Shown: one piece after another, positions 41,716 through 44,953 of the stretch | Layout of the letters: every line of letters begins with the position of its first letter | How positions within the stretch are numbered: the first letter of the stretch is position 1 | Assembly: GCA_944381495.1 (NCBI GenBank) | Contig: CALWLJ010000002.1 | Span: 124,001 to 188,000, forward strand | Origin: an uncultured Mediterraneibacter sp. | GTDB taxonomy: Bacteria; Bacillota; Clostridia; Lachnospirales; Lachnospiraceae | Reading direction: 5' to 3' | Length of the DNA: 64,000 nucleotides | The notes under the pieces: model-generated | Seen by the model: only the letters and a program-made list of their open reading frames with translations | Told to the model about the DNA's origin: nothing | Databases searched by the model: none | Position numbers and translations under genes: made by a program

Positions 41716-41899
41716 ATTAATCTCCTCTTTCTTTTCGGAAATGCTTTTTGCTGTTCCTGCGCCGGCACAGAACCGTCCGCTCCCTTCTATTTTCCGGGCG
41801 CCGGGGATTCTGCCGCCGTACTCTGTTATTATATAACGTTTTCATTCTTTCGAAAACACTTTTTTCATGCAGATAGTTTCTCAATCTTTTTACTCTGCC

Positions 41900-41928
41900 T
41901 TGCATTTTTCCACTTTACTTGGTAATAT
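41900..41928 (+). promoter_or_regulatory. Promoter of the ABC-F gene and structured leader
   Basis: -35 TTGCAT (41900-41905), 17 bp, -10 TAATAT (41923-41928). The leader of about 75 bases folds into a GC-rich hairpin (41940-41947 with 41953-41961, one bulge) before the AAGGAG. Confidence 0.7.
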
Positions 41929-42007
41929 AGGCGTTAGGTCACGGGGCGTTCCGCTCCGGTGTCCGCACCCTTTGAACGGTTTTAATTTATATAAGGAGAA
42001 ATGTATC

Positions 42008-43642
42008 ATGATCAGTGCAAATAATGTATCTCTGCGCGTCGGAAAAAAGGCGCTGTTTGAAGATGTCAATATTAAGTTTACAGAAGGCAACTGCTACGGT
42101 CTGATCGGCGCCAACGGTGCAGGAAAGTCAACATTCCTCAAGATCTTGTCCGGTCAGCTGGAGCCTACCAGCGGAAGTGTTGCCATCACTCCGGGGGAGC
42201 GTCTTTCCTTCCTGCAGCAGGATCACTTCAAATACGATGAATATCCTGTTCTGGACACGGTAATCATGGGAAATGCCCGCCTCTATGAAATCATGAAAGA
42301 AAAAGAAGTTATCTATGCCAAAGAAGACTTCACCGATGAAGACGGCATAAAAGCAAGTGAACTTGAGGCTGAATTTGCTACAATGAACGGCTGGGAAGCC
42401 GAATCAGACGCGGCGTCCCTGCTGAACGGCCTCGGAATAGAGACAGAACTCCATTACAAACTTATGAAAGACCTGACCGGTCCTGAGAAGGTGAAAGTCC
42501 TGCTGGCACAGGCCCTGTTCGGCAACCCGGACATCCTTCTCCTGGATGAGCCTACCAACCATCTGGATCTGGATGCTATTGCATGGCTTGAGGAATTCCT
42601 GATTAACTTTGACAATACTGTCATCGTTGTCTCCCATGACCGGTATTTTTTAAATAAAGTATGTACACAGATTGCTGATATTGATTACGGAAAAATCCAG
42701 CTCTACGCCGGAAACTATGATTTCTGGTATGAGTCCAGCCAGCTTCTTATCCGTCAGATGAAAGAAGCCAATAAAAAGAAGGAAGAAAAGATCAAAGAAC
42801 TCCAGGAATTTATTTCCAGATTCAGCGCCAACGCATCCAAGTCCAAACAGGCCACATCAAGAAAGCGCGCGCTGGAAAAGATCCAGCTTGATGAAATCAA
42901 GCCTTCCAGCAGGAAATATCCATACATTGATTTCCGTCCCAACCGTGAGATTGGAAATGAAGTGCTGACCGTAGAAGGACTCTCCAAAACGATTGACGGA
43001 GAAAAAATCCTGGACAACATCAGCTTCACACTGGGACATGATGATAAAGTAGCATTTGTGGGCGGAAACGAAACAGCAAAAACGGTCCTCTTCAAGATCC
43101 TGATCGGCGAGATGGAACCTGACGAAGGAACATACAAATGGGGAATCACAACTTCCCAGGCATACTTTCCAAAGGACTTCGGCGGGGAATTTGACAACGA
43201 TTATACCATTACAGAATGGCTAACCCAGTATTCCGAAAATAAGGACGCCACTTATGTCCGCGGATTCCTCGGCAGAATGCTTTTTTCAGGCGAAGACGGA
43301 GTAAAACGCCTGAAAGTGCTGTCCGGAGGAGAGAAAGTACGATGCCTTCTGTCCAAGATGATGATTTCAGGAGCAAACGTCCTCATCTTCGACGAACCCA
43401 CCAACCATCTGGACATGGAATCCATTACCGCTCTCAACAACGGAATGATCAAATTCCCGGGCGTGATCCTCTTCACCTCCCGCGATCATCAGATTGTCCA
43501 GACAACTGCAAACCGCATCATGGAAATTGTACCAGGCGGACAGCTCATCGATAAGATTACCACCTATGATGAGTATCTCGAAAACGATGAAATGGCAAGA
43601 AAGAGACAGACCTACTCCGTACAGACTGAAGAAGAAGACTGA
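42008..43642 (+). CDS. ABC-F family ATPase (YkpA/YbiT-like)
   Basis: A 544-residue soluble protein with two ATPase domains and no membrane segment. NBD1 has Walker A GANGAGKST, signature LTGPE and Walker B LLLDEPTNHLD; the ~70-residue charged linker (QMKEANKKKEEKIKEL...) is the arm that contacts the ribosomal P-tRNA in this family. NBD2 has a deviant Walker A (GGNETAKT), an intact LSGGEKV and LIFDEPTNHLD. ABC-F proteins resolve stalled ribosomes. Start 42008 is chosen over longer open frame because of AAGGAG at about 9 bases. Its TGA stop overlaps the foldback element. Confidence 0.9.
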   Translation: MISANNVSLRVGKKALFEDVNIKFTEGNCYGLIGANGAGKSTFLKILSGQLEPTSGSVAITPGERLSFLQQDHFKYDEYPVLDTVIMGNARLYEIMKEKEVIYAKEDFTDEDGIKASELEAEFATMNGWEAESDAASLLNGLGIETELHYKLMKDLTGPEKVKVLLAQALFGNPDILLLDEPTNHLDLDAIAWLEEFLINFDNTVIVVSHDRYFLNKVCTQIADIDYGKIQLYAGNYDFWYESSQLLIRQMKEANKKKEEKIKELQEFISRFSANASKSKQATSRKRALEKIQLDEIKPSSRKYPYIDFRPNREIGNEVLTVEGLSKTIDGEKILDNISFTLGHDDKVAFVGGNETAKTVLFKILIGEMEPDEGTYKWGITTSQAYFPKDFGGEFDNDYTITEWLTQYSENKDATYVRGFLGRMLFSGEDGVKRLKVLSGGEKVRCLLSKMMISGANVLIFDEPTNHLDMESITALNNGMIKFPGVILFTSRDHQIVQTTANRIMEIVPGGQLIDKITTYDEYLENDEMARKRQTYSVQTEEED

Positions 43643-43670
43643 TGTTGAAAAATCAGTCTTTGACACAGAG

Positions 43671-43831
43671 AAAACTTCCGTTATAGATTGAAAATTATAG
43701 TCGACTATACTGACGCACGAATACAGGTGTTACTCCCGGCTCAGGACGCTTCGCTCTAATTCGCCGTCCGCAACACCTGTATTCGTGCTGTGAGTTCAGA
43801 TCAGTAATTTTCTATCCATAACGGAAGTTTT
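43671..43831. repeat. Foldback module A
   Basis: Outer arms 43671-43697 and 43805-43831 match at 25 of 27 bases (14 perfect at the base, AAAACTTCCGTTAT). An inner 17-bp perfect stem follows (43715-43731 with 43772-43788), then an apical GGACG/CGTCC stem (43744-43748 with 43765-43769). The palindrome TAGTCGACTA (43698-43707) lies in the internal loop. Confidence 0.85.
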
Positions 43832-43860
43832 TCTTATGGTCAAAAATACTCTTTTTCGGG

Positions 43861-43911
43861 AGGCATCCGGGGCGGATGCAGCTGCCGGCATGTACCTGGC
43901 CGGGGATGCCT
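43861..43911. repeat. Foldback module B
   Basis: AGGCATCC (43861-43868) pairs with GGATGCCT (43904-43911). CCTGGCC (43895-43901) can instead pair with GGCCAGG (43920-43926), an alternative fold. Confidence 0.65.
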
Positions 43912-43947
43912 GCTGAAAAGGCCAGGCTTCCGTCTTGGATAAAGTGA

Positions 43948-44133
43948 GTCCCCGGACAGGGCATCACGTGAGCAGAATATTCCGCGGGAGCGTTCCGAAA
44001 AGCATTTGCTTCGGATGTTAGCCGGAATCAAATGGAGTGTCCTTACACGAGCATTTGGTTCCGGCGTTACATCCGGTCAAATCTTTGAGGTAGAGCGGAG
44101 CGGATTCTGCGATGTGATGCCCTGTCCGGGGAC
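43948..44133. repeat. Foldback module C, long rod hairpin
   Basis: A 20-bp perfect GC-rich stem closes it (43948-43967 with 44114-44133). Inside, GCAGAAT (43972-43978) pairs with ATTCTGC (44104-44110). A 23-24 base arm (44012-44034 with 44052-44075) pairs at about 20 positions, and the tip is GTGT-CCTT-ACAC (44037-44048). Confidence 0.88.
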
Positions 44134-44176
44134 GGACCTTTATCGATATTTGAAAGTCTGATTTTTCAACATCCCT

Positions 44177-44821
44177 TCAGACAGTTTTCCATTTTTTTAC
44201 TTTTTCTTTGTAGAAGATCATGCCTTCTTTTTTTATTTCTGCTTTTCCGTTTTTGATTTCTACCAGGGTTACGGAGCAGTTGGGGGGTACTTCGTCTTTC
44301 CAGAAGTGTTCGACTGAGAGGTTGCCTTTTATCCGGTTCAGGAGTGCTGTCATGGCGGCGCCATGGGTGGAGACGAGTATGTTTTTCTCTGCCAGGTCGT
44401 CTCTGGAGCGCATCTCATCCAGAAATGCTCCTGTACGTTCATAGAGCTGAGCAACCGTCTCTCCGTCTTCAGGAGCCGTGTAGTTTCCCGTATCTGTAAA
44501 GAACCGGTTGAATTCTATACTCTCCGGCGTCTGATCCTTTCCTCCCGAACATATTCCCTCATATCTTCCAAAGCCGATTTCCTGTATCCTTTTATCCTCG
44601 ATCAGCTCCGCTTTTCTGTCTCCCATGATGATCTGAGCAGTCTCTTTTGCCCGCAGAAGCGGGCTCGTATACCCCAGATCAATTCGGATGTCCTTCATTC
44701 CTTCCGCAGTCTCCCGGGCAAGGTGCCTCCCGTAATCATTTAAAGGGATATCTGTATGTCCCTGGACTTTGTGCTGTCTGTTCCATTCAGTTTCCCCATG
44801 TCTTACTATATATAACATCAT
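44177..44821 (-). CDS. Histidine phosphatase family protein (phosphoglycerate mutase-like)
   Basis: A 214-residue cytosolic phosphatase. LYIVRHGETEWN contains the phosphorylated His and catalytic Arg; LGYTSPLLRAKETAQIIMG the second Arg; EIGFGRYEG the acid Glu region; and LVSTHGAAMTALLNRI the second His. Such proteins dephosphorylate small sugars or cobalamin precursors; the substrate is unknown. The start is ATG 44821 (or 44818), with AAAGGAGG about 9 bases upstream. It is convergent with the ABC-F gene across the foldback element. Confidence 0.88.
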   Translation of the reverse strand: MMLYIVRHGETEWNRQHKVQGHTDIPLNDYGRHLARETAEGMKDIRIDLGYTSPLLRAKETAQIIMGDRKAELIEDKRIQEIGFGRYEGICSGGKDQTPESIEFNRFFTDTGNYTAPEDGETVAQLYERTGAFLDEMRSRDDLAEKNILVSTHGAAMTALLNRIKGNLSVEHFWKDEVPPNCSVTLVEIKNGKAEIKKEGMIFYKEKVKKWKTV

Positions 44822-44953
44822 AATCTGTATCCTCCTTTGAAGAATAAATGATGGACGGTCTGTCATCTTCGCTTTCTGTTATTTCTATACAGGTTACTGT
44901 TATGGCGGACGTCTGAAAACAAATGAACAGCGACCTGTACAGATCCATATATA

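Follow-up and report, generated by a model that had tools for sequence, protein, structure and literature searches.

Between the convergent genes for an ABC-F family ATPase and a histidine-phosphatase family protein, in the 64-kb stretch of DNA analysed here (the window), lies a 533-base element that is one copy of a multi-copy family of large hairpin-shaped DNA repeats (Table 1). A preliminary description, made from the sequence alone, had recognised the extent and main parts of this foldback, and these stood up to re-examination: the 16-bp perfect terminal inverted repeat (TIR; 43641-43656 and 44158-44173, continued by one mismatch and four matches, and perfect over 21 bp in the orthologue of genome G029), the three foldback modules, the 27-base arm pair with two mismatches in module 1 (43671-43697 and 43805-43831, 25 of 27 or 93%), the 17 perfect pairs of its inner stem, and the 186-nt rod closed by 20 perfect pairs (43948-44133). 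The ends coincide, as described, with both stop codons (positions 43642 and 44177), and no frame looks coding, the longest open reading frame wholly inside the element having 63 aa (frames of 60 aa or more were listed). In a scan of the window for inverted repeats with arms of 18 nt or more within 600 bp, the four arm pairs of the element were the longest among the seven repeats found.

Table 1. Features of the 533-bp element and its flanking genes (window positions).
Feature	Coordinates	Strand	Remarks
Whole foldback element	43641..44173	.	Between 3' ends of two convergent genes
Left TIR	43641..43661	+	First 16 bp perfect; 20/21 matched
Right TIR	44153..44173	-	Partner of left TIR
Module 1 hairpin	43671..43831	.	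27-nt arms, 17-bp inner stem; lineage-specific
Central spacer hairpin	43851..43921	.	29 pairs in MFE fold
Rod (module 2)	43938..44144	+	Bounded by GATAAAG...CTTTATC; genus-conserved part
Rod, best conserved 5' stretch	43988..44008	+	GAGCGTTCCGAAAAGCATTTG
Rod, best conserved 3' stretch	44078..44096	+	CAAATCTTTGAGGTAGAGC; opposite 43988..44008
Left flank gene, ABC-F family ATPase	41867..43642	+	TGA overlapped by element's left end
Right flank gene, histidine-phosphatase family	44177..44866	-	Stop 3 bp from element's right end

Folding and covariation of the rod

RNA folding of 571 nt gave minimum free energies (MFE) of -279.3 (+ strand) and -259.8 kcal/mol (- strand), against means of -170.3 and -156.0 for shuffled sequences (z = -13.5 and -16.0), and on each strand none of 100 shuffles folded as low. 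About half of the bases had been estimated to pair; the pairing is there, but its extent is higher, with 408 of the 533 bases of the element paired in the + strand MFE fold.

A MAFFT alignment of 37 rods yielded, with RNAalifold, a consensus of 65 pairs in which 97.4% of the cells are paired. Covariation among homologues, a check proposed in the preliminary description, is pronounced: 50 of the 65 pairs change on both sides, a value reached in none of 500 shuffles and to which slid structures came nowhere near. To classify pair cells we used 47 representatives, reduced from a model-fitted alignment of the best 136 of 150 rods (90 bits or more; the remaining rows are weaker antisense readings), and counted 2802 Watson-Crick, 112 G-U, 30 A-C and 55 other combinations. 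On the earlier suspicion of selection at the RNA level, based on mismatches that keep G-U pairing, these counts point both ways. G-U exceeds A-C (on the rod strand still 86 against 30 when pairs dominated by G-U are left aside), as would be expected if one strand were the more important, but G-U makes up only about 4% of the cells, a low share that fits selection or repair at the DNA level too; covariation in a palindrome can also come from hairpin-templated DNA repair. The two best conserved stretches of the rod face each other, and such paired conservation is what a sequence-specific binder would need.

The absence of a match to known RNA families also held, since neither element nor rod scored above a gathering threshold in Rfam 15; the three sub-threshold matches were to eukaryotic families, far below their cut-offs. 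A simple scan for intrinsic terminators (loops of 3-8 only) returned none at 43400-44400, and promoter-like sites were near chance (two found, 1.1 expected).

Copies and distribution of the family

Searching the element's own genome (G000; 3.19 Mb in 39 contigs) with its DNA sequence yielded 17 matches. After merging of antisense readings these make up nine sites, of which three hold full-length copies (in the window and on contigs C9 and C4), five partial copies and one a remnant from which the rod is deleted. A covariance model of the rod built from 37 rods (R1) adds three more sites (C10:56957 with C10:56574, C10:25987 and C5:105704), giving a total of at least 12, the paralogues being 83-88% identical to the window element. 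The copy-number check suggested in the preliminary description therefore came out positive, as did its search for homologues, which occur across the genus. As the element is multicopy and its homologues share a covarying fold, the refutations that the description had named, a lack of both homologues and transcript or descent from a decayed coding gene, do not apply.

Among 99 genomes searched with the DNA sequence (the own genome included), 36 matched, all of the same genus, and R1 found a rod in 45 of the 58 Mediterraneibacter genomes examined. In the family at large, a single weak match (42 bits) appeared among 199 other genomes, from a draw of 200 that included the own genome. A 22-base degenerate pattern run over GTDB r220 hit 65 stretches, 64 of them in records of Mediterraneibacter or other Lachnospiraceae, many with names that point to chickens; in the 65th (Roseibium, L231) R1 finds no rod, and we regard it as a chance match. 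Six pattern matches in viral contigs likewise contain no rod by R1, and plasmid and phage collections had no match at E 1e-5. In these searches the repeat family is restricted to the genus Mediterraneibacter and its kin; Mediterraneibacter catenae SW178 and M. glycyrrhizinilyticus An427 are two named carriers of rods. No such element is described in the titles and opening lines of abstracts of the openly licensed papers surveyed.

Rod numbers differ widely between genomes. Given as lower bounds, with the best 42 candidates scored per genome in the genus and the best 12 in the family draw, they are at least 42 in G028, 34 in G004, 33 in G005, 31 in both G037 and G057, and 27 in G015; other R1-positive genomes have at least 1-14 each, and in 13 none was found among the candidates scored. 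Genome G028 carries at least 37 sites, and among the matches listed for it 19 are complete copies, 86-100% identical to the query and with the same, sharply defined ends of AAATTTGTAGTTGTTGG type.

Architecture, spacers and cargo

The preliminary reading lacked the two-rod architecture, the inversion in place and the exchange of modules at a site, all of which emerged from the comparison of copies. Among 135 unique elements, 76 have two rods and 59 have one, the latter class taking in the chance match L231, rods separated by more than 700 bp, copies truncated where a contig ends and copies that carry a different hairpin. In all 76 two-rod elements the rods face outward ('-+'). Elements are mostly 500-800 bp long, with rods of about 205 nt and a spacer of about 50-270 bp between paired rods (one of the two surveys behind this range took in 84 of 112 loci); by eye, a terminator-like hairpin occupies the centre of the G028 elements and of L053.

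In the window element, a variant of this layout, module 1 takes the position of one rod. This module is present in the own genome and in its near relative G029 and is matched weakly and in part in G034 (3 of 58 genomes in all), and two sites in the own genome hold module 1 without a rod (C10:34937 and C2:89715).

Most copies have no gene between their rods. One site, seen in three species (L047, L049 and L050), has different genes bracketed by rod pairs: a ParE/RelB pair with DUF2000 in L047, and, in L049 and L050, a protease of CAAX type (weakly matched, at 9.4e-5) with or without a DUF2000-like gene. At L055 a 6-kb segment between rods holds, by eye, an XRE-type regulator and an ABC transporter. 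The two rod arms of this locus, 99% identical over 313 nt, point in opposite directions and enclose several genes, at a distance of about 6.2 kb from each other.

Location at gene 3' ends

With flanking genes called naively, the 127 elements that have at least 500 bp on both sides lie between 76 convergent, 45 codirectional and 6 divergent gene pairs (the last including the Roseibium match L231), compared with 11, 24 and 12 among the 47 gene pairs of the window, and at least one flanking gene ends toward the element in 121 of the 127. The fit to stop codons is close. In G028 the stop of an open reading frame of 100 aa or more falls within 6 bp of the element end in 36 of 68 cases and within 15 bp in 44 of 68, whereas random positions gave 13 and 27 of 2000. 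Nine of the 19 complete G028 copies have stop codons at both ends, and at such sites the host spacer is therefore missing on both sides.

Sites that persist while their contents change

Downstream of the ABC-F gene, other genomes of the genus present a series of different structures. G028 has its own two-rod element there (L146). Four genomes (G007, G041, G045 and G047) have a further hairpin type, in which R1 scores at best 11.6 bits (G007). By eye, terminator-like hairpins stand at this position in G023 and G018, and in G003 a short spacer without an evident terminator. We also noticed in G001 (L193) another foldback, unrelated and about 540 bp long, with the TIR AAATTTAAC/GTTAAATTT, which occupies the gene-end space that the window element fills in the own genome. 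The hairpin type of the four genomes was seen at loci L184, L194, L195, L204 and L170 (G007, G047, G045, G041 and G016, in that order), and its loop, of the form GCACAACTCGC..GCTCA, was read by eye in some of these five loci.

Relatives of G004 give the same picture in a comparison that covers four of six sites searched and nine of eleven stretches. Where G004 has an element, G057 has a single rod at two sites and no rod at one, G037 has a small terminator-like hairpin and, at one site, a rodless mosaic of other hairpins, and G002 and G020 have such mosaics at two sites each. These contents mostly span the distance from stop codon to stop codon, often with similar ends. Sites without an element contain diverged spacers, terminator-like hairpins or other foldbacks. 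The sites persist across species, and their contents change.

Inversion in place

The orthologue of the window element in G029 (L018/L066) is 95% identical and lies between the same flanking genes, but is inverted, with both junctions between gene and TIR kept. At six sites inspected in the own genome and G029, three elements are inverted (in the window and on C12 and C19) and three have the same orientation. Extending the comparison automatically to 119 elements gave 79 orthologous pairs, of which 29 have the same orientation, 19 are inverted and 31 are unclear; at least one inversion was found at 10 of the 16 sites with clear pairs, the window site included, and the site of the L233/L277 group looks like two inversion events. 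These comparisons are between species, with one genome per species and many metagenome-assembled genomes. The breakpoints, inspected by eye in eight pairs, lie at short TIRs, the repeat being AATTCGTGTTTGTT at the L229/L242 site and imperfect at L040/L041.

The inverted copies L229 and L242 are 99.3% identical, while the flanks of the two species are 84-93% identical and 22 other loci of these genomes match the element at 82-88%. Here and at the window site (95% against the 83-88% of paralogues) orthologues are closer to each other than to paralogues, which argues for vertical descent and flipping in place and disfavours independent insertion in opposite orientation. The orthologues L253 and L254, at 86.8%, are no closer than paralogues, and at sites such as this one independent re-insertion may have occurred.

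Search for a mover or partner

We searched the genus for two families that might move the elements, Rpn (PF04754) and RAYT (PF01797), and neither fits. All six PF04754 (Rpn/YhgA-like) genes of G028 (340-385 aa; L117, L123, L127, L128, L138 and L143) have elements or remnants of elements on both sides. The upstream border is the same and exact in all six; on the stop-codon side it is exact in three, and in the other three a truncated element or a remnant of 71 bp forms the border. G004, G015 and G037, which have at least 27-34 rods, gave no match to PF04754 at E 0.001, and the three PF04754 genes of the own genome are far from its sites, the nearest being about 45 kb away on the same contig.

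Y1 genes of RAYT-like type are widespread in the genus, and one of eight Y1 proteins was checked as RAYT (NF047646, 68 bits, below the NCBIfam cut-off of 80). None of eight Y1_Tnp gene neighbourhoods (genes of 252-301 aa; L302-L309) contains a rod, and in all three loci searched the gene adjoins small palindromes of GGGACGTAGT type. G028, the genome richest in rods, has one Y1 match only, a 159-aa frame. The DDE_3 transposase genes, which we take to be IS630-type, were rejected as movers as well: by eye they are nested insertions with their own ends in two G028 copies. In these copies (L136 and L141) two different DDE_3 genes have, by eye, entered the central hairpin at one and the same CTAG, beside another nested hairpin repeat, about 190 bp long. 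No autonomous transposon sharing the element's ends was present among the loci examined, where the open reading frames enclosed by rods resemble cargo or insertion sequences nested in the element, and no target duplication was seen at the ends of G028 elements.

Interpretation

We consider it reasonably probable that the family is a genus-restricted mosaic of giant palindromes, comparable to BIMEs, which lies at the 3' ends of genes, flips at its TIRs and acts as a 3'-end structure in both directions. The copies, the fold, the placement, the flips and the changes of module rest on the comparisons above, the role and the enzyme on inference. An element would probably be a symmetric end structure shared by the two convergent genes; it would block, process or protect both convergent transcripts. 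Such action would be near-symmetric and orientation therefore indifferent, so that flips would be tolerated. Inversion could occur when folding back brings the TIRs together, through a site-specific recombinase or through template switching in replication, and copies might spread occasionally via a trans-acting factor for which the rod or the TIR is the recognition site. The terminator-like hairpins found by eye where the foldback is absent speak for this account. Against this reading stand the 45 of 127 elements between codirectional genes, the G003 site without an evident terminator and the empty terminator scan.

A bolder version, which we put forward tentatively and think unlikely, holds that these are mobile, invertible 3'-end elements whose rods of about 200 nt are recognised as folded single strands by a putative recombinase or nuclease, with modules, and sometimes cargo such as a toxin-antitoxin pair, being flipped or exchanged at fixed stop-to-stop sites throughout the genus.

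The preliminary description had proposed either a MITE-type element or a structured non-coding RNA. The multiple copies and the covarying fold agree with it; a MITE in the strict sense does not emerge, as neither a target duplication, a clean empty site nor an autonomous relative was seen. A broader MITE-like family, in which an ordinary transposase moves non-autonomous copies and inserts them near terminators or stop codons, would account for the 16-bp TIR, the want of any frame over 63 aa and the multiple sites of G028 with the same ends (ends differ between species). We nevertheless hold it to be improbable, because the DDE_3 genes are nested at CTAG with ends of their own, because both element ends are often at stop codons with the host spacer gone, and because some sites stay occupied between species as their contents change.

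It is somewhat less probable still that the elements are mobile cassettes, with rods as attC-like single-strand recombination sites that allow the cargo or modules they enclose to be swapped at fixed positions at gene 3' ends. Rod pairs do bracket either about 50-270 bp or genes (L047, L049, L050 and L055), the six PF04754 genes of G028 lie in comparable positions, and modules differ at fixed sites; but neither of the families searched genus-wide, PF04754 and PF01797, links a recombinase to the rods, most copies are without a gene, and three of the rod-rich genomes are without PF04754. We are equally doubtful that the palindromes are passive, ancestral terminators grown by replication slippage and homogenised or flipped by template switching, with neither mover nor function. 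Two-sided changes dominate in the rod, inversions occur at short and sometimes imperfect repeats, and the location is of terminator type, all as such growth would have it, but the rod is conserved in a sequence-specific way across the genus and copies have expanded in some species, and something more than passive growth is therefore called for. Least probable of all is a structured RNA family expressed from the element and selected for its rod fold at the RNA level, to which the strong covariation, the conserved rod stretches and the excess of G-U over A-C lend colour, but against which speak the low G-U share, the placing of an element's two rods on opposite strands, the flipping of the whole element, the near-chance number of promoter-like sites and the lack of an Rfam match.

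Relation to known systems

In some species a genome holds tens of copies, which amount to natural replicates that can be compared to learn whether palindromes at gene ends control convergent transcription and which enzyme flips or copies large palindromes. In gut Lachnospiraceae the elements may, besides, mislead the assembly of short reads and surveys of invertons.

Inverted pairs of DNA uptake signals are reportedly used as terminators, and our elements resemble them as repeats in inverted orientation at gene 3' ends, but are far larger and structurally conserved. With MITEs they share a TIR, multiple copies, an intergenic position and the lack of coding capacity. Bacterial MITEs are put at 70-300 bp with TIRs of 15-30 bp in passages of PMC3733652; the present elements, unlike these, are mostly 500-800 bp long, conserve the internal rods rather than the TIR, and showed neither target duplication nor autonomous partner.

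REP sequences and BIMEs are characterised, in the same passages (PMC3733652), as extragenic palindromes, often close together in opposite orientation, that form mosaics and lie mainly between convergent or unidirectional open reading frames. Like REPs, BIMEs and REPINs, the elements consist of palindromic units in inverted pairs (76 of 76) at extragenic 3' locations (121 of 127). They differ in that their arms are about 205 nt, against 20-40 bp for REP units, in that they do not lie beside the RAYT-like gene of the genus in the eight neighbourhoods examined, in the inversion of the whole element and in their reach to the stop codons. REP units have a GTAG or CGTC foot; by eye, the G028 element end does contain GTAG. 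Invertons, in parts of a 2025 survey (PMC11892184), are stretches of DNA between short inverted repeats whose orientation differs, and the same parts mention that some inverton motifs lie downstream of genes, with a possible link to termination. Here, too, DNA between short inverted repeats is inverted, though between species only, and unlike an inverton the flipped segment is itself built of giant hairpins, lies at gene 3' ends and has no clear promoter. Since some features of REPs or BIMEs and of invertons are present and others are absent or left open, we regard the element as a new variant and a member of neither group; by its size, its covarying fold, its filling of the space between gene ends and its flipping over the time scale of species, it joins three subjects that are mostly treated separately, REP-type repeats, invertons and terminators.
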